A stretch of 64,000 nt of DNA from Desulfonauticus submarinus (lineage in GTDB: Bacteria > Desulfobacterota > Desulfovibrionia > Desulfovibrionales > Desulfonatronovibrionaceae). Below, piece after piece: positions 22,428 through 33,714 of this stretch. Under the pieces are notes generated by a model that worked only from the letters and a program-made list of their open reading frames with translations, had not been told where the DNA came from and did no database searches. The position numbers and the translations under genes are program-made. The DNA is taken from the NCBI RefSeq assembly GCF_900104045.1, contig NZ_FNIN01000002.1:124001-188000 (forward strand), in the 5' to 3' direction. The first letter of the stretch is position 1; each line of letters starts with the position of its first letter.

Positions 22428-24570
<2,143 letters not shown>

Positions 24571-24607
24571 TTAATTTACTATAACCAAAAGCAAATATTG
24601 TGCCATA

Positions 24608-24641
24608 TTCAAAAACTAAATGAGACATTTCAAAAACTAAA
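24608..24641. repeat. 13-bp direct repeat in the pseB/fcl divergent region
   Basis: TTCAAAAACTAAA occurs at 24608-24620 and again at 24629-24641, 21 bases apart start to start, which is two DNA turns. The whole interval 24553-24789 (237 bases) between the divergent pseB and fcl genes is very AT-rich and must contain both promoters, but no clean promoter hexamer pair stands out. The repeat could bind a regulator, or be chance in AT-rich DNA. Confidence 0.4.
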
Positions 24642-24789
24642 AAATTGAAAACCTTCTTAATTTTTTATAAATTCTAATCTAACATGAAAAATATTTTTAT
24701 AGACAGGATAAATAAGAAAAGGGTATTCAATACCTAACTGAATAATCTAAAAATATAAAATAGAGAATTTATCTAAGGAGCAAAGATAT

Positions 24790-25734
24790 ATGCATAAAAA
24801 CTCTAAAATATACATAGCCGGCCATAAGGGAATGGTGGGGAGTGCTATCTGGCGTGCTCTTAAAGATAAAGGATACTCTAATCTAATTGGGTTTCCATCT
24901 AGCAAACTAGATCTTACGAATCAAAAGCAAGTAGAGGACTTTTTTCTTACATATAAACCAGAGTATGTATTTTTAGCAGCAGCCAAAGTTGGAGGAATAT
25001 TAGCCAATGCGACCTATCCTGCTCAATTTATTTATACAAATATTGCCATTGCGACAAATGTAATTCATGCTGCTCATAAGACAAAAGTCAAAAAACTCTT
25101 ATTTTTAGGTTCTTCTTGTATTTATCCAAGGGAATGTCCTCAGCCGATTAAAGAAGAGTATTTACTCACTTCTAGTTTAGAACCCACTAACGAAGCATAT
25201 GCAATAGCTAAAATTGCTGGTCTTAAAATGTGCGAATTTTATTTTAAAGAATATAAAGATAATTTCTTTGCTGTTATGCCAACTAATTTATATGGACCAA
25301 ATGACAATTTCCATTTAGAAACCAGTCATGTTTTACCTGCCATGTTACGCAAATTTCATGAGGCAAAAATAAATAATAAGCAGCACGTCACCCTTTGGGG
25401 AACAGGACGTCCTAAAAGGGAATTCCTCCATGTGGACGATTTAGCAGAAGCCTGTATCTTTTTAATGAATCTAAAACAAGATTTTCCCCGCCTATTAAAT
25501 ATAGGATGCGGCCAAGATTTAAGCATAAAAGAACTTGCTTATAAAATTAAAACAATCATTGGATATAATGGAGAAATTATATGGGACACATCTAAACCAG
25601 ATGGAACTCCTCGCAAACTTTTAGATATAAGCAAAATAAAAAAATTAGGCTGGCAACCTAAAATAAAATTAGACAAAGGCATATCCTCTACCTATAAATG
25701 GTTTGTTGCCAACTATAACAACATAAAGGAATAG
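24790..25734 (+). CDS. fcl: GDP-L-fucose synthase
   Basis: 314 residues with AAGGAGCAAAGATAT before the ATG. SDR epimerase/reductase: [52 protein letters not shown] (Tyr-x3-Lys) and [10 protein letters not shown], all diagnostic of WcaG/Fcl. It converts GDP-4-keto-6-deoxymannose, made by the adjacent gmd product, into GDP-L-fucose with NADPH. Only two bases separate it from gmd, so the pair is an operon divergent from pseB. Confidence 0.94.
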
Positions 25735-25736
25735 TT

Positions 25737-26897
25737 ATGGAAAAAATAGCTTTAATTACAGGTATTACAGGACAAGATGGTGCATATTTAGCAGACTTTC
25801 TTTTAAAAAAAGGATATATTGTCCATGGAATTAAAAGACGTACTTCTCTTTTTAATACGGATCGCATTGAACACTTATACCAAGATCCACATGACCCAAA
25901 TAGGCGATTTATTTTACACTACGGAGATCTCACTGATTCTACTAACCTAATTAGATTAATTCAACGAATCCAACCAGATGAAATATATAATCTAGCTGCT
26001 CAAAGCCATGTTCAAGTATCTTTTGACAATCCAGAATATACTGCCAATGTAGATGCCCTAGGCACTCTTAGAATATTAGAGGCAATAAGAATTCTAAATC
26101 TAGTTAAAAAAACAAAATTTTATCAAGCATCTACCTCTGAATTATTTGGCAAGGTTCAACAAATACCTCAAAATGAAAACACTCCTTTTTATCCCCGCTC
26201 TCCTTATGCAGTAGCTAAATTATATGCTTACTGGATTACTGTAAATTACCGTGAGGCCTATGGTATATATGCCTGTAATGGTATTTTATTTAACCATGAA
26301 TCTCCTATTAGAGGAGAAACTTTTGTAACCAGAAAAATTACCCGCGCTTTAACTCGAATTGTATTAGGATTACAAGACAGACTATACCTTGGGAATCTGG
26401 ATGCCAAAAGAGATTGGGGACATGCTAAAGACTATGTAAAAATGATGTGGCTTATGCTTCAACAAAAAAAACCTGAGGACTATGTCATCGCTACAGGCGA
26501 ACAACACAGTGTTAGAGAATTTGTAGAACAAAGTGCCAATCTTTTGGGTTTAGAAATAGAATGGAAGGGCAAAGGAGTAGATACAAAAGGGTTCGTAAAT
26601 AAATTCAATAAGGACAAATTCTTCCATTTACTTGATATTCTAGGCTTAAAACCTAAAATAAATAGTTTCGACTTAGAAGAACGATGTATTATAGAAATAG
26701 ATCCTCGCTATTTTAGGCCAACAGAAGTAGAAACTCTTCTTGGGGATGCTACCAAAGCCAAGGAAAAGTTAGGTTGGGAGCCTAAAATAACCTTCTCAGA
26801 CATGATTAAAGAAATGGTTGAACAAGATTTAATACTAGCCTGTAGGGATTTTTTATGTGAAAACAATGGCTTTTGTATACAAACTAGAGAATGGTAA
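25737..26897 (+). CDS. gmd: GDP-mannose 4,6-dehydratase
   Basis: 386 residues, start ATG after [28 protein letters not shown] is the NADP site, [15 protein letters not shown] and [12 protein letters not shown] are Gmd-specific, STSELFGKV and [11 protein letters not shown] hold the catalytic residues, and [20 protein letters not shown] follows. The tail is somewhat longer than in many Gmd proteins: a stretch around residues 285-320 before [14 protein letters not shown] looks like an insertion. It supplies the substrate of Fcl. Confidence 0.94.
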
Positions 26898-26918: not shown

Positions 26919-27737
26919 TCACTTCTTAGATAAAAGAGAAAACCAATATTTATGACTATTTATAAAATCTACAGAAATATCAAAATCCTCTTTAGTGTGT
27001 GGCTCTAAAGTATATGTTGGACTAATCTCTAAAAACTCAAGTCCAGCAAAAAGCTCTACAAAAGGAATATTTCCTGCTCCCAAACCAAGGTGTTTATCAT
27101 CAAAACCATCATTATCATGTAAATGAAGATGTTTTAAAAATGGTCCCAACAACTGAAGCCATTGTGCTAAATTACCAAGCTCACTTCCTTTTCCAAAACA
27201 AAACCAGTGACCTATATCTAGACAAAATCCTAAATACCTAATACTCCCTAGATGAGATAATAAATCTTTTATTGGTTCAGGCTCAAGTTCATAGACATTT
27301 TCCAAAAAAAGAGGAAAACGTTCATTTATCCTATCCAAAACCATTTCCCAAGTAGTCAAAGAATTGACCAACCAGTCAGAAAAAAAATCATCATATTCTT
27401 GAGGAAAATATCCAATATGAGCTATACTATGCACAGGGCTATATACTGCAGCTATGTCAACAGCCTCTAACAAGCGCTTCCTTGTAGCTTCTAAAATAAA
27501 CGGATCAAGCGCTCCAGGCCTTAATTCTAAAAAAGGCAAATGAATAGAAACCTTAAGACCTTGTTTTGCAAAAATATCTGCAACTTCTAAATGCCAGCTC
27601 TTAGGGAACTCCTCCACACTAAGCCAATCTAACCCCAGTTCAGGCTGAATACGATGTTTAAGAAAATAATCCAAATATTCTTTGCCATCATAAATATATC
27701 TTAAAGGCAAGTTAACAAAAAAATTATGGAGAGACAT
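26919..27737 (-). CDS. Sugar phosphate isomerase/epimerase-fold TIM barrel (CbiR-like candidate)
   Basis: 272 residues, ATG after AAAGAGGATATTT. AP-endonuclease-2 fold: metal ligands are visible as Glu in FLENVYEL, Asp/His in FCLDIGHWFCFG, His in LKHLHLHDNDGFDDKHL and Glu near the end in YTLEPHTKEDF. No secretion signal. The fold covers xylose isomerases, hydrolases and the cobamide-remodelling phosphodiesterase CbiR. CbiR is possible because the window also encodes corrin synthesis genes, but it is an inference. It is the last gene of the purB operon and overlaps the peptidase gene by 14 bases. Confidence 0.65.
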   Translation of the reverse strand: MSLHNFFVNLPLRYIYDGKEYLDYFLKHRIQPELGLDWLSVEEFPKSWHLEVADIFAKQGLKVSIHLPFLELRPGALDPFILEATRKRLLEAVDIAAVYSPVHSIAHIGYFPQEYDDFFSDWLVNSLTTWEMVLDRINERFPLFLENVYELEPEPIKDLLSHLGSIRYLGFCLDIGHWFCFGKGSELGNLAQWLQLLGPFLKHLHLHDNDGFDDKHLGLGAGNIPFVELFAGLEFLEISPTYTLEPHTKEDFDISVDFINSHKYWFSLLSKK

Positions 27738-29358
27738 AAATATCCTCTTTCTTTACTAAATCAAAGTTAAGAGCATTTCTGATTGTAATCCTATGCAACC
27801 CTTCTTCTAGTTTAAGAATATCTCCACTATAGTAAGGAAGAGGATATTTATCAAGAAATAAACAAAAATATTTTTCAGGATATATCTTTATTTTATAGTC
27901 ACCTTGTTTTATCTTACTCTTTAGCAAAGTATACTGACTATTTTTTTTATCAATTAAAACAATATACTCTAATTTTGCTTTAGAGACTAAAACTCTCCAC
28001 TTATAGGGATAAGAGTTTTTTGTTTCCCGTATAATATCAAACTGCCAAGTATTATCATTTAACACTTTAATATATTTTGACATAAACACATTTTTTGTTA
28101 AGTAAATAGGTGAATCTATATCCTGACCTGTATTAGTTAAGGAGTTAAATTTAATATAACCTTTTACATTTATCACCTCTCTCTTATTAGGCCATAATCC
28201 ATATACAATTAGTGTTTGTCCTTCAAATGCCTTAATTGTTTCTCCTGGAAAAGCACATTTGACCTTACCGTCTAAAGAATAAATTAATAACGGATACCCA
28301 ATACAAGACGAATAATACTTACTTTGTCCTATTTTTTTCTGTAAAACATTTTTTCCATCTAAAATAAAAGCAATATTTGTCCTTTGTCCTGGAAAAAGGA
28401 CGAACTCTTTATTTTTTAAATCAATATCTATATCTCCAACTTTTACACCTACTTCCACACTTTTTGGATAAGAAAGATGCACTTTAAATACAAAGTTATT
28501 TACACGATAAATTTGAAAGTCTATCCTCTGTTTAAACCAATTTTTTATATCTTTTTCTATTTCTTTATTCCATGGAAGTTCAAATTCAACTCCCATCTCA
28601 GCACAAAGCCTTTTAATTAACATAAGCATATGTTTTGCTTTCCAAGACAAGTCCTTTATATTTTTACTAACTTCTATAGCAAAAGCAGGTTTGATATAAT
28701 TTTTTAGTACATTATAAGTTAAAGATTTTTTTTGCTCTGGATATAAAGTTGTTGGAGAGAAGGTGTTCATGTTAAATAAAGAAAAAGAATACTTAGAAGG
28801 CGTAACTTGAGGGTTTACATCGCTTAAAACAGTTTTAGCCACACTTGCCAAATAAATATGTTCATAAACTGGTTCATCTATAATAATAGACTGACCATAA
28901 CGTTTAGGATTTCTCAAGACATCAATATAATATTTAGAATAAAAACCACTTCCTTCATGAAGATGAATAAGGCCATCGCTCAATCCTACTAAATAAAAAA
29001 TTGCTTGTGCTAAAGAATCTTCATAATATTCACGATAATTTTTATCAAACCTTCTATTCAAATCCACATGAACTTGTCTTTTAAATAAAAACAAAGAAGG
29101 CCAATTAGCTCGCGGAACTATTATCAAGCTTCCCTTTTTTACTTTCGCCTTACTTAAAATCTGAGCACAAATTACTCCTGTAAGCTCATCACCCTGAATG
29201 CCACCTTGAAGCATTATAGTTGGCCCAGGATGTTCGCCTTTTAAAAAATAAACTTTTAAAGGGAAAAAAGTTTCTTTGAAATAAACGCCAGAAGAAGCAA
29301 AAACACTATTGCTAAGAGCTACACTACAAAAGAATATTATCCAAAGGATATGTCTCAC
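27724..29358 (-). CDS. Secreted M14/M99-type carboxypeptidase, Csd4/Pgp1-like
   Basis: 544 residues with a signal peptide (about 1-22, ending VFASS). The zinc site reads GGIQGDE (Gln55, Glu58) with His134 in IHLHEGSG, and VDLNRRFD near 98-105 matches the substrate Asn-Arg. A Gln in place of the usual first His ligand is the hallmark of Helicobacter Csd4, a D,L-carboxypeptidase that trims peptidoglycan tripeptides to set helical shape. The C-terminal 270 residues look like beta-sandwich modules. It overlaps the membrane protein gene before it by 35 bases. Acts in the periplasm. Confidence 0.78.
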   Translation of the reverse strand: MRHILWIIFFCSVALSNSVFASSGVYFKETFFPLKVYFLKGEHPGPTIMLQGGIQGDELTGVICAQILSKAKVKKGSLIIVPRANWPSLFLFKRQVHVDLNRRFDKNYREYYEDSLAQAIFYLVGLSDGLIHLHEGSGFYSKYYIDVLRNPKRYGQSIIIDEPVYEHIYLASVAKTVLSDVNPQVTPSKYSFSLFNMNTFSPTTLYPEQKKSLTYNVLKNYIKPAFAIEVSKNIKDLSWKAKHMLMLIKRLCAEMGVEFELPWNKEIEKDIKNWFKQRIDFQIYRVNNFVFKVHLSYPKSVEVGVKVGDIDIDLKNKEFVLFPGQRTNIAFILDGKNVLQKKIGQSKYYSSCIGYPLLIYSLDGKVKCAFPGETIKAFEGQTLIVYGLWPNKREVINVKGYIKFNSLTNTGQDIDSPIYLTKNVFMSKYIKVLNDNTWQFDIIRETKNSYPYKWRVLVSKAKLEYIVLIDKKNSQYTLLKSKIKQGDYKIKIYPEKYFCLFLDKYPLPYYSGDILKLEEGLHRITIRNALNFDLVKKEDIYVSP

Positions 29359-30022
29359 GAAAAATTACTTTTCCTTGATTGTTTTTAACTGTTAACTTAA
29401 ATGCAAAAATATTATTCATGCTTATATAATCTGGAACTTTAAATCTAATCTGAACAGCCTTGAATCTTGAAATGGTAAATTTCAAATCTTCATTAGTTAA
29501 ATTTAAGTCATAACTTTTTCCATCTCTAGTAATAACAGTAATAAAAACTCTTCCTCTACTTTCTTTATTTGCTTCCAAATTATTTAAGTCAAAACGCATA
29601 AGAAAATATTTATTATCTCTTATACACTGAACATTACTTATCTTAACTAAATTCAAATTCTTTTTACCAAAAAGTTCCTCTAAATCTAATCCTGGCTTAT
29701 TCTTATTTTGAGCAATCCCTGAGACTAAATCTTTAATATATGTCTCATCATACTTTTCTAATAACTGTTTAACATTGTTCAAACGACTTAACTCAAATTT
29801 TATTTCCTTTAACTCATTCTCTTTTTCTTCTAATAGCGCATAATTTTTTTTATTTTCTTTATTTAATTTAAACAAAAAGAACGTACTAATACCACAGTAT
29901 AATAGAATAAACACTAATAAAATGGGCAAAAATTTAACTACCCATCTCTTTATTCTAAAAGTTTTAAGAGAAGTATCATCTCGTAAAACAATTATATTAT
30001 AATATATCTGCTTATTTTTCAT
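29324..30022 (-). CDS. Single-pass membrane protein with coiled coil
   Basis: 232 residues. A short cytoplasmic N-terminus precedes one membrane segment (about 32-52, LPILLVFILLYCGISTFFLF), then a strongly charged coiled coil (about 53-95, KENKKNYALLEEKENELKEI), then a periplasmic domain with beta-strand character. I do not recognise the family. The gene overlaps both the L,D-transpeptidase-like gene upstream (11 bases) and the M99 peptidase downstream (35 bases), so the three are made together; an anchoring or scaffolding role for the two secreted enzymes is a reasonable guess. Confidence 0.65.
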   Translation of the reverse strand: MKNKQIYYNIIVLRDDTSLKTFRIKRWVVKFLPILLVFILLYCGISTFFLFKLNKENKKNYALLEEKENELKEIKFELSRLNNVKQLLEKYDETYIKDLVSGIAQNKNKPGLDLEELFGKKNLNLVKISNVQCIRDNKYFLMRFDLNNLEANKESRGRVFITVITRDGKSYDLNLTNEDLKFTISRFKAVQIRFKVPDYISMNNIFAFKLTVKNNQGKVIFRETYPLDNILL

Positions 30023-31307
30023 CTATTCTAGTCCATTTTTCCTTCAAAATTCTCCATTTATCTTTATAAGGTTCTACTATTATTTCTTTTTTACCAAGAT
30101 CAAAATATCCTGACATATCTTCATATCTCTGCACAAAATTTATTTTAAATCCAACCTTACTAAGTTTTATTTGCAAGTTATAAATCTCTATCTTTTTAGG
30201 TTTACGTTTAGCCCAAATATTTTTCTTAAAGTTTATAATATTTTTTAACCCTTTAACCTTTCCTTGTACAGCATTATCTGCATAAAACAAAGAATATGCT
30301 TTTATATCTGCCTTTTCCCAAGCTGTTTTCCACCCATCCAGCCATGTCTTCAAGTCTTTTGTTCTAGCTTTTAAATATTTTTTCAATACATCTGTTCTTT
30401 TTTGTTTTCTCCACTCTACCCCAACAATCTTCCAATCCCATTTATTTTGCATCCAATATAATCTCTTTATGCCAACAGATAAAAGAGCAGGTGAACGAAA
30501 AAGTTGGTCAAAATAACAAACTATATAATCTGGCCCATAAATTATTTTAGGCTTAGATATAAATACATCTATCCATTTATATTTTTTAAAAAGAGCCTTT
30601 TTTTTTGCAATAAAATGGGCATAATCTTTTTTCTTTTCTACAACTAAGTTCGAATCATAAAAATCAAAAAAATCAGGCGACTTTTTACGCCAAGCCCAAG
30701 ACCACTCTTGAACTTTTTCTAAAATAAAACCAAAGAGTTGTGTCGCTTCTTTTTCCTTTAACCAATAAAAATCTTTTGTAATTATAACAGGAGTTTTTTT
30801 AAAAGAAATATTTTCCTCAATCAATGGAATATGATCTAAATTTACTGCCACGCAACCTTGAGTGTTAAACGCTTTAATAGGAGTACCTCTTCCATGAATC
30901 CATATCCCATGCCCACTTTTATTATGAAGAATATCCACAGGATTAGGATAATTTAAAGTAAAAGCTACCCCCCCATACAAAGAAAAATCTAAACCATGAG
31001 TTAATTTTTTTTCAATAAAGTACACTCCCTCTGGAGTTTTCTTGTCTCCTTCTTTTTGTTTGTCTCCTCTTACTTGTCCAGTAGTACACGGCAAGACAAA
31101 AATTTGTTTTAATGGACTATGATTTGAAAAAAAATAAAGTTTTTGTTGCTCTTTGCTAACAACAAAAAAATAACTTGGTAAAAATTGATTATTCTCTACC
31201 CTAAGTATCCATTCTGCCCTAGCCTCCCAGGACATGAGTAAACTTAACCAAGTTAAAAGAAAAGCAATTTTACCAAGTAAAGACAACCTGACCCTCTGGA
31301 CCTGCAA
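30012..31307 (-). CDS. Exported YkuD-fold L,D-transpeptidase/carboxypeptidase with C-terminal NTF2-like domain (Csd6/Pgp2-like)
   Basis: 431 residues. A signal peptide (about 10-30, LLGKIAFLLTWLSLL...EARA) is followed by a YkuD domain (about 45-170) with catalytic HGR (His138) and TQGCVAVN (Cys152). The C-terminal part (about 310-431) looks like an NTF2-like fold. This is the domain order of Helicobacter Csd6 and Campylobacter Pgp2, which trim peptidoglycan tetrapeptides. The frame opens at TTG 31307; a second TTG at 31286 is better spaced from AGAGGG, so the start is uncertain. It overlaps the lipoprotein gene. Confidence 0.78.
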   Translation of the reverse strand: MQVQRVRLSLLGKIAFLLTWLSLLMSWEARAEWILRVENNQFLPSYFFVVSKEQQKLYFFSNHSPLKQIFVLPCTTGQVRGDKQKEGDKKTPEGVYFIEKKLTHGLDFSLYGGVAFTLNYPNPVDILHNKSGHGIWIHGRGTPIKAFNTQGCVAVNLDHIPLIEENISFKKTPVIITKDFYWLKEKEATQLFGFILEKVQEWSWAWRKKSPDFFDFYDSNLVVEKKKDYAHFIAKKKALFKKYKWIDVFISKPKIIYGPDYIVCYFDQLFRSPALLSVGIKRLYWMQNKWDWKIVGVEWRKQKRTDVLKKYLKARTKDLKTWLDGWKTAWEKADIKAYSLFYADNAVQGKVKGLKNIINFKKNIWAKRKPKKIEIYNLQIKLSKVGFKINFVQRYEDMSGYFDLGKKEIIVEPYKDKWRILKEKWTRIDEK

Positions 31308-31842
31308 ACATCAATTCTTTAAAATTTGCAATATAAGGGAATCTAATAATATAAAAACTCTGCCATGGATTTGTAAATGGGAAAAATTCCTTTATCTTAG
31401 GGTAAGGCCATTCAAGCTCTCTAACTTCTAAAGGATAAATTTTTTTATTATTCTGGACAAGAAAAATTGACCATAATGGAGAAAGAATTTTAATTTTAGA
31501 TAACTCATCAGTTGTAGAAGAAATAGCTACAAAAAATTCTATACTCTCTTTCCCTTCTTCTAAAACCTTTTGGGAAAACGCATCTTTTTCCTCTTTACTT
31601 AAACTATACACTTTTGCCCACTTTCTAACAAATGCTTTACGCCAGTCCATACTCTTATACACGCAAGAGACATCTATAACTTCATCTAATCCAACATATA
31701 TCTTTTGATTATTAGTCCATTTTTTACTAATAGAATAATAATCTGTGGATTCAGATGGCCACAGTATTTTTTCCATCTCCTTAGAAGAACACCCACAATT
31801 TAATATCAAAGCCACTACAAATATAAATTTCAAATATCTCAT
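31270..31842 (-). CDS. Putative lipoprotein of unknown function
   Basis: 190 residues. The N-terminus (MRYLKFIFVVALILNCGCSS) is a lipoprotein-like signal with Cys at 16 and 18; the lipobox is imperfect (Asn-Cys-Gly-Cys). The rest is soluble, Trp- and Lys-rich, with no motif I recognise. It lies 7 bases after pyrE and overlaps the L,D-transpeptidase-like gene by 38 bases, so it probably belongs to the same envelope module. Confidence 0.6.
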   Translation of the reverse strand: MRYLKFIFVVALILNCGCSSKEMEKILWPSESTDYYSISKKWTNNQKIYVGLDEVIDVSCVYKSMDWRKAFVRKWAKVYSLSKEEKDAFSQKVLEEGKESIEFFVAISSTTDELSKIKILSPLWSIFLVQNNKKIYPLEVRELEWPYPKIKEFFPFTNPWQSFYIIRFPYIANFKELMFAGPEGQVVFTW

Positions 31843-31849
31843 CTCTTGT

Positions 31850-32416
31850 CTATCCTTTTACCAATGCAACCAATTCCCCTCTAGTAAAAATAGAGTATAG
31901 ATTGTAACCTTCTTTTTCAAGAGATGCCCTTCCTCCTTCTTCCCTATCTAAAACACAAATTATATCTTCTACCACAAGTCCACTATCCTTTACCCGCTCA
32001 CATGCTTTTAAAACAGAGCCTCCTGTTGTGATAACATCCTCTAAAATACACACCCTATCCCCTGAAGAAAAATTTGCCAAACCCTCTAAAAATTGATTTG
32101 TCCCATGTCCTTTTGCTTTTTTGCGGACAATAAATCCAAATAAGGGCATTTTTTCTAAATAAGATGTCAAAACTACTGAACTGACTAAAGGATCTGCTCC
32201 TAAAGTCATTCCTCCAACACCTACAATAGGATAGGGCAAATTTCGAATAATCTGCATAAATATCCTGCCTAAAAGATAACTTCCTTCTGGATGTAGGGCT
32301 GTCTGTTTACAGTCGAAATAATAATCGGATTTTTTACCAGATGTCAAAACAAAGTTACCTTCTTTATAAGATTTTTCATAAAGTAAACTAGCTAATCTTT
32401 TTTTTAAATCTTCCAC
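31850..32416 (-). CDS. pyrE: Orotate phosphoribosyltransferase
   Basis: 188 residues. Type I PRTase: the PRPP-binding motif is VCILEDVITTGGSVLKA, the N-terminal SGKKSDYYFDCKQTAL holds the orotate/PRPP lysines, and FGFIVRKKAKGHGTNQFLEG is the flexible catalytic loop. It joins orotate to PRPP to give OMP in pyrimidine synthesis. It starts two bases after the purB stop, so the two nucleotide genes head this operon. Confidence 0.93.
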   Translation of the reverse strand: MEDLKKRLASLLYEKSYKEGNFVLTSGKKSDYYFDCKQTALHPEGSYLLGRIFMQIIRNLPYPIVGVGGMTLGADPLVSSVVLTSYLEKMPLFGFIVRKKAKGHGTNQFLEGLANFSSGDRVCILEDVITTGGSVLKACERVKDSGLVVEDIICVLDREEGGRASLEKEGYNLYSIFTRGELVALVKG

Positions 32417-32418
32417 AA

Positions 32419-33714
32419 CTACTCTCCAAACACCCGGTTATAAATTAAATCTACATATCTTATATAATAGTTTAAATCAAATATGCTGTCTAATTCTTCC
32501 TTAGACAAATAATTGGTAATGTCTTGATTCTCTCTAATTTTCTTTTCAAAAGAAACCTTTTCCTCCCAACAAGAAAGAGCTGTCTTTTGAACTAACTCAT
32601 ATGCTTGTTGTCTTTTTAAGCCTTTATCAATCAAGGCTAAAAGAACTCTCTGAGAATAAAAAAGACCAAAAGAAGACATTAAATTTCTTGCCATATTGTC
32701 TTTATTTATCTTTAAATTACTTAAAATAGAATTCAATCGATGCAGCATATAATGCACCAAAATAGTAGAATCTGGCATAATTACGCGCTCTACAGAAGAA
32801 TGACTGATATCCCTCTCATGCCATAAAGCCATATTTTCCATGGAAGCTAAAGAGTTTGTTCTTACCAATCTTGCCAATCCACTCAGGTTTTCGGCAGAAA
32901 TAGGATTTTTCTTATGAGGCATTGCTGAGGATCCTTTCTGTCCTTTGCTAAAGCCCTCTTCTACTTCTAAAACCTCTGTTCGCTGAAGGTGTCTTAATTC
33001 TACACAAAGGCGCTCAACTCCTCCTGCAATAAGCGCCAGCGAAGTAAAATAATGGGCATATCTATCTCTTTGCACTATTTGGGTAGAAATAGGATCAACT
33101 CTTAATCCTAGAATTTCACAGGCAATTTTTTCCACTTCTGGAGATAAATGGGCATAGGTTCCTACAGCGCCAGAAATTTTACCAATACGAATATTTTCTA
33201 CAGCATTTTTCCATCTTTTTTTATGGCGCATAAACTCAGCATAAAATCCTGCCATTTTTAAGCCAAAACTAGTAGGTTCAGCATGCACTCCATGAGTTCT
33301 ACCAATCACAATAAGCTCTTTATGCTCATAAGAAAGTTTTTTTAAGGTGTCTAAGACTAAGTCTAAAGCGTCTTGAATAAGCTTTCCTGCACGTACTAAC
33401 AAAATACTATTCGCAGTATCTACAATATCTGAAGAAGTACAGCCTAAGTGAATAAACCTAGAAGCAGCTCCCACCTTTTCTTCTACTGCAGTTAAAAAAG
33501 CTATTACATCATGTTTTGTCTGCTCTTCTATTTCTAAAATCCTATTTAGATCAAAATCAGCCTTTTCGCGAATTTCTTGCATTTCCTTAACCGGAATTAC
33601 TCCTAACTTATGCCATGCCTCACAAACAGCCAATTCCACTTCTAGCCATACCCTAAACTTATTTTCTAAAGTCCAGATAGATCCCATTTCAGGGCGAGTA
33701 TAACGTTCTATCAT
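32419..33714 (-). CDS. purB: Adenylosuccinate lyase
   Basis: 431 residues, the short bacterial form. Fumarase/aspartase superfamily: signature GSSAMPHKKNPISAENL with the catalytic Ser loop, GRTHGVHAEPTSFG and HLGCTSSDIVDTA for substrate binding. It catalyses two fumarate-releasing steps in purine synthesis. First gene of the seven-gene run ending at 26919; a terminator (33742-33773) separates it from the zinc-ribbon gene upstream. Confidence 0.95.
   Translation of the reverse strand: MIERYTRPEMGSIWTLENKFRVWLEVELAVCEAWHKLGVIPVKEMQEIREKADFDLNRILEIEEQTKHDVIAFLTAVEEKVGAASRFIHLGCTSSDIVDTANSILLVRAGKLIQDALDLVLDTLKKLSYEHKELIVIGRTHGVHAEPTSFGLKMAGFYAEFMRHKKRWKNAVENIRIGKISGAVGTYAHLSPEVEKIACEILGLRVDPISTQIVQRDRYAHYFTSLALIAGGVERLCVELRHLQRTEVLEVEEGFSKGQKGSSAMPHKKNPISAENLSGLARLVRTNSLASMENMALWHERDISHSSVERVIMPDSTILVHYMLHRLNSILSNLKINKDNMARNLMSSFGLFYSQRVLLALIDKGLKRQQAYELVQKTALSCWEEKVSFEKKIRENQDITNYLSKEELDSIFDLNYYIRYVDLIYNRVFGE

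Follow-up and report, generated by a model that had tools for sequence, protein, structure and literature searches.

Introduction

Two described systems bear on the locus reported here. In the M23 peptidase LmdC, a cytoplasmic beta-hairpin that precedes a membrane helix and a coiled coil has been described to bind bactofilin, with a dissociation constant (KD) of ~15 uM for the tail peptide (PMC10945521). For Bd1075 of Bdellovibrio, an L,D-carboxypeptidase whose gene is described as monocistronic, the authors write that they are aware of no mechanistic explanation for how a protein is directed to a single lateral side wall (PMC8938487). Here, we analyse an operon on the reverse strand of a 64,000-nucleotide stretch of the Desulfonauticus submarinus genome (contig NZ_FNIN01000002.1, positions 124,001 to 188,000), referred to below as the window. 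It encodes a lipoprotein (LIPO), a secreted protein with a YkuD and two NTF2-like domains (LDT), a single-pass membrane protein (CC) and an M99 peptidase (M99). An earlier note on this DNA had compared the two enzymes to Csd6/Pgp2 and Csd4/Pgp1, respectively, and had envisaged a shape module of curved sulfate reducers, with CC and LIPO as candidates for the missing anchor. We propose that CC probably links the two enzymes to bactofilin. A search of the literature by titles and abstracts, with most subscription journals outside its coverage, returned nothing describing this operon or CC.

Results

Among 297 genomes of the order, CC was present in 220, LDT in 260, M99 in 210 (a count that takes in a second, more Csd4-like class) and bactofilin in 236. 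CC and bactofilin occurred together in 217 genomes, CC without bactofilin in three (with a completeness of 77, 82 and 96%), bactofilin without CC in 19 and neither of them in 58. The corresponding numbers are 220, 40, 16 and 21 for LDT and 201, 9, 35 and 52 for M99. CC tracks bactofilin more tightly than LDT does; within the 260 LDT-bearing genomes, 213 contain both CC and bactofilin, three only CC, seven only bactofilin and 37 neither. Since CC is almost never found without bactofilin and bactofilin is possible without CC, this distribution is the one expected of a client. The LDT-bearing genomes of genus g29 comprise three with both CC and bactofilin and 11 with neither, and because this genus, like g12 and g26, holds both states, several separate changes are likely. 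At the level of individual loci, CC was located behind LDT in 6/6 CC-bearing genomes checked, and LDT was present without CC behind it in 11/11 genomes lacking CC and bactofilin. The source genome (2.1 Mb, 23 contigs) has one bactofilin gene, situated outside the window (L052:6242-6658; G000:C2:84298-84585). It is directly preceded by genes reading as mreB, mreC, mreD, mrdA and rodA and followed by ATP synthase genes.

When named genomes were scanned with an LDT profile, a search that returns LDT-bearing loci only, 80 loci were obtained: 31 (L105-L135) that belong to the Desulfovibrionales by label or match, with the exception of L134, and 49 (L136-L184) from many phyla. Where at least 700 bases followed LDT, CC was the next gene in 26 of 28 loci of the first set and 26 of 48 loci of the second. 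A bactofilin gene was found in the flank of 0/31 and 15/49 loci, respectively, and all ten proteins checked among these 15 passed the Pfam cut-off for bactofilins. In 13 of the 15 flanks, it is part of a contiguous, co-directional run with no gap larger than ~400 bases, in the order LDT-CC-M99-bactofilin (L160, L163, L168, L174, L177, L180 and L183), LDT-CC-bactofilin (L141, L161, L167, L176 and L181, with L176 and L181 labelled Bacteriovoracaceae) or bactofilin, LDT-CC fusion, M99 (L158). In the other two, it stands ~900 bases beyond M99 (L150) or on the other strand (L145). CC or its fused domain is present in 14 of the 15 bactofilin-flanked loci, and across the 49 loci the two are associated (both in 14, CC only in 14, bactofilin only in one, neither in 20).

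The C-terminal beta-sandwich of CC forms the C-terminus of the LDT protein in L158 (3.6e-15) and L154 (8e-5). A separate CC gene is absent from both loci, and M99 comes after the fusion gene. This fusion argues that the sandwich works with LDT. Among the 45 loci of L136-L184 with at least 2 kb after LDT, M99 lies within 1.7 kb in 28, of which 18 have CC and 10 do not. LDT and M99 thus form a pairing of long standing, and CC frequently lies between the two genes. LDT and M99 also occur side by side, whether or not CC is present, in loci labelled Neomarinimicrobiota, Nitrospirota, Deferribacterales, Latescibacterota, KSB1 and Aminicenantes. The module thus spans several phyla and is not special to curved sulfate reducers, contrary to the earlier suggestion; a restriction to sulfate reducers is rejected.

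Closer to the source, M99 matches were present in 22 of 61 genomes (the source and 60 near relatives), and 20 stretches were compared. The order purB-pyrE-LIPO-LDT-CC-M99 recurs in L031, L032, L039 and L050 (M99 broken or misassembled), and LDT-CC-M99 without LIPO in L034, L040 and L041; apart from a family discussed below, the remaining stretches contain partial, fragmented or unlinked copies. Because the identical order is found again in relatives, the grouping of the genes is not due to chance, and the neighbourhood conservation that the earlier note had named as a check is borne out. In L050:1-1108, which is from the same genus, a frame change and a contig end interrupt M99, reflecting decay or an assembly error.

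CC is an undescribed protein family with members in several phyla. It is not covered by any Pfam or NCBIfam model, a PDB search with a 34-member profile gave no relative, and the 34 members had single weak matches at most in Pfam, NCBIfam and PDB. A CC-like protein of the Latescibacterota (L164:1549-2289) weakly matches DUF6776 (0.0089) over the beta domain, a possible family link; a literature search found one paper naming DUF6776, in which no function is given. The AlphaFold model of CC, with a mean predicted local distance difference test score (pLDDT) of 90.9, comprises two strands (residues 7-12 and 20-25), a helix (26-90), shorter helices and a sandwich of eight strands (126-226). A fold search with the sandwich returned generic immunoglobulin-like matches, none in particular, and SH3 proteins were absent from the 50 fold matches shown. 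Family scans gave no M23 match for CC, which is modelled with a C-terminal beta-sandwich instead. In the first 24 members (alignment A5), mean pairwise identity is 50% in the hairpin, 26% in the membrane helix, 34% in the coiled coil and 34% in the sandwich. The hairpin is therefore the best-conserved region, which points to a cytoplasmic partner.

The front half of CC resembles that of LmdC-type M23 peptidases. When the CC profile was searched against 6306 reading frames from all loci of the analysis, a sample that is not neutral because its M23 genes had been selected by their relationship to the entire M23 protein, the best non-CC matches were mostly LmdC-type M23 N-termini, in register from the tail. 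The matches included the N-terminus of the source genome's own M23 protein (5.9e-4), which is of the LmdC kind; exceptions near the top were an LDT fusion, a receptor-like frame and the M23 gene of L269, whose match starts inside the hairpin. Comparison of the CC tail with the M23 tail gave a score of 15.0, which was reached by 0/500 column shuffles and 0/572 real windows. The M23 gene of L269 (L269:2663-4348, family f6) is of the LmdC type and stands directly before a bactofilin gene, in a genome that is without CC and keeps LIPO.

LDT matches the Pfam models YkuD (PF03734, 1e-14) and Cds6_C (PF24125, 1e-21) and has two NTF2-like stretches. Its closest solved relative is 7o21 (3e-41, aligned over both domains), which is Bd1075 (PMC8938487), followed by Csd6 (3e-23) and Pgp2 (2e-18). 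Seven Csd6 residues are described as triad members or positions whose change abolishes activity (PMC4599014), and LDT has equivalents of all of them (E110, Y133, H155, W158, H160, G161 and C176 in Csd6). Across 12 aligned LDT proteins, the Y, W, H, G and C positions are kept in 12/12, and the E and the first H vary. The sequence of LDT thus predicts an L,D-carboxypeptidase of the Csd6/Pgp2/Bd1075 type, in agreement with what had been suggested for the gene two places upstream of M99.

M99 reaches 92.9 bits against the Pfam M99 model (cut-off 27; 3e-26) and matches Csd4 in the PDB (1e-20). Residues Q55, E58 and H134 correspond to the QxxE...H metal motif of Csd4, and R94, N101, R102 and E229, judged by alignment and motif, to Csd4 Arg86, Asn93, Arg94 and Glu222 (motif and Csd4 residues from PMC4220969). 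In 26 aligned M99 proteins, the metal, Arg/Asn/Arg and Glu positions are invariant except for Q55, which is Gln in 24/26 and His in 2/26 (L164:2286-4148 and L170:4261-6138), the E and H ligands being present in 26/26. In the AlphaFold model (mean pLDDT 78.5), the catalytic part is mostly >90 and residues 276-353 are of low confidence. Csd4 structures occupy ranks 1-5 of the Foldseek matches in the PDB (E 1e-21 to 1e-19), with a global template modelling score (TM-score) of only 0.4-0.5. The structure prediction proposed earlier as a check hence returned a Csd4-like fold for M99, the metal site is kept in its sequence, and the protein is predicted, from sequence and model, to be a D,L-carboxypeptidase of the Csd4/Pgp1 type. 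Some Desulfovibrionales have a second, more Csd4-like M99 protein (L044-L049), which is not beside LDT where checked.

LIPO was detected in 28/297 genomes. Cys18 is conserved in all of the five proteins aligned, and the lipobox is clear in relatives and less regular in the window protein. As an anchor or core part of the module, LIPO is rejected because it occurs in so few genomes; of the two candidates for the missing anchor, CC is the likely one, and its role can now be narrowed to that of a bactofilin-linked adaptor.

The positions 27724-31842 and the overlaps assigned to the four genes were confirmed (Table 1). They belong to a run of seven genes (26919-33714, reverse strand) whose neighbours overlap or nearly abut: purB, pyrE, LIPO, LDT, CC, M99 and a TIM-barrel gene. 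As listed, the overlaps are 35 bases for M99/CC, 11 for CC/LDT, 38 for LDT/LIPO and 14 for the TIM-barrel gene/M99, and LIPO and pyrE are separated by 7 bases. Comparison with the relative L031 suggests that LDT probably starts at a TTG near 31286, which would shrink the LIPO-LDT overlap to ~17 bases. The TIM-barrel protein is weakly like CbiR; its gene is found after LDT or M99 in many relatives and persists even in loci that have lost CC and M99 (L254, L255, L266 and L139). Beside the run (23572-26897) lie sugar-nucleotide genes, namely a PF02719 dehydratase gene and two reading as GDP-fucose synthase and GDP-mannose dehydratase.

Table 1. Features of the seven-gene run, in window positions.
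Feature	Position	Strand	Remarks
purB	32419..33714	-	upstream context in run
pyrE	31850..32416	-	upstream context in run
LIPO, lipoprotein	31270..31842	-	lineage-restricted accessory
LDT, secreted, YkuD and two NTF2-like domains	30012..31307	-	predicted L,D-carboxypeptidase, Csd6/Pgp2/Bd1075 type
CC, single-pass membrane protein, undescribed family	29324..30022	-	proposed bactofilin-to-carboxypeptidase adaptor
CC residues 7-25, cytoplasmic beta-hairpin	29948..30004	-	model strands; most conserved part
CC residues 26-90, membrane helix into coiled coil	29753..29947	-	AlphaFold model
CC residues 126-226, periplasmic immunoglobulin-like beta-sandwich	29345..29647	-	model; fused to LDT in two other loci
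M99	27724..29358	-	predicted D,L-carboxypeptidase, Csd4/Pgp1 type
TIM-barrel protein PF01261	26919..27737	-	often last gene of run

Discussion

Our computational analysis shows two enzyme families with intact active sites, a recurrent gene order, co-occurrence and linkage of CC with bactofilin, two fusions, and a predicted hairpin and sandwich in CC. We consider it quite probable that CC is a bactofilin-linked adaptor for LDT and M99. The operon would then specify a machinery for peptidoglycan trimming that is tethered to the cytoskeleton. CC would reside in the inner membrane, with its short cytoplasmic beta-hairpin binding the bactofilin filament and its coiled coil and beta-sandwich reaching into the periplasm to hold LDT, and M99 would be held through or beside LDT. 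LDT would take the terminal D-Ala off tetrapeptides and M99 would then take the third residue off the resulting tripeptides, such that stem shortening is confined to the position of the filament; trimming restricted in this way to one side would bend the cell. In genomes that have it, LIPO may connect the complex with the outer membrane. The physical binding, the enzyme activities, the order of trimming, the localisation and the effect on curvature are what we infer from this arrangement.

Several observations weigh against this proposal. The bactofilin gene of the source genome is not in the operon, 19 of the 297 genomes have bactofilin and lack CC, and the co-occurrence counts and Fisher values ignore shared ancestry. 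LDT-M99 pairs without CC are found in family f2 (L035-L038) and in 10 loci of L136-L184, plus the fusions among them. Family f4 (L262) has the order purB-pyrE-LIPO-CC with no LDT or M99 in place; as LIPO and CC are kept together there, LIPO goes with CC. The resemblance of the tails is weak for CC proteins of other phyla, which score 10.3 against M23 tails, a value reached by 41/500 shuffles and 4/572 real windows, and a CC-tail profile search of the whole source genome, with E up to 10, matched only CC itself. Finally, H. pylori Csd6 is reported as not appearing to interact with the bactofilin CcmA, Csd5 or Csd7 (PMC9507126).

Instead of contacting bactofilin, CC could be a membrane scaffold for both carboxypeptidases, with LDT positioned through its NTF2 domains in the way proposed for Bd1075. 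The NTF2 domain is described to take Bd1075 to the convex face (PMC8938487), the window LDT has two NTF2-like domains, and both LDT and the LDT-M99 pair persist without CC. However, it is CC, more than LDT, that tracks bactofilin, a bactofilin gene belongs to the run in 13 loci from other lineages, and conservation within CC peaks in the cytoplasmic hairpin, so we regard a scaffold of this kind as unlikely. Slightly less probable still is a function of the operon in general stem-peptide trimming or recycling without an effect on shape. While its genes share a run with nucleotide-synthesis genes, the module is tied to the shape cytoskeleton by co-occurrence and gene linkage, and deletion of characterised relatives of both enzymes is reported to alter cell shape (PMC8938487, PMC10151779, PMC3844677).

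The assignment of LDT itself also has to be weighed. YkuD domains include transpeptidases and protein-detaching amidases, and LDT weakly matches the DpaA model (27.7 bits against a cut-off of 365), so that the operon might act in cross-linking the wall or attaching lipoproteins instead of trimming stems. We judge this very improbable, given that LDT has all seven key Csd6 residues, that its closest solved relatives are three characterised L,D-carboxypeptidases, and that the family of its partner M99 uses the tripeptide made by an L,D-carboxypeptidase.

If CC is indeed a membrane adaptor joining bactofilin to stem-trimming enzymes, it would supply a basis for targeting to one side wall and could explain one-sided wall trimming in curved bacteria. 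The linkage of the genes ties Csd4/Csd6-type trimming to the cytoskeleton, and our proposal suggests a function for an unannotated protein family of several phyla. With more reserve, we lean towards the broader idea that CC founds a widespread family of transmembrane adaptors, which tie bactofilin filaments to Csd6-/Csd4-type carboxypeptidases via a hairpin tail like that of M23 endopeptidases. One filament would then serve two kinds of clients, combining cross-link cutting with stem trimming, and CC would provide the missing means by which curved bacteria position trimming enzymes at a single side wall.

Compared with the known systems, LDT has the YkuD and NTF2 domains and the catalytic residues of Bd1075, Csd6 and Pgp2, with Bd1075 as its closest solved relative, but differs from them in its second NTF2-like domain and its partner CC. 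M99 shares with Csd4 and Pgp1 the catalytic domain, the Gln-Glu-His site, the substrate-binding Arg/Asn/Arg and the catalytic Glu, whereas its C-terminal part is longer, including the low-confidence stretch 276-353, and its gene lies in an operon with LDT and CC. With LmdC, a bitopic M23 endopeptidase recruited by the bactofilin BacA, CC has in common the short tail with a beta-hairpin, the membrane helix and the coiled coil, as well as the linkage to a bactofilin gene; however, it carries a beta-sandwich in place of the M23 domain, stands beside two separate carboxypeptidases and is not a member of the same family. A similar layout is described for H. pylori Csd5, which joins CcmA and the wall and consists of an N-terminal cytoplasmic bactofilin-binding part, a transmembrane segment and a periplasmic domain (PMC9507126), although Csd5 ends in an SH3 domain and CC in an immunoglobulin-like sandwich.

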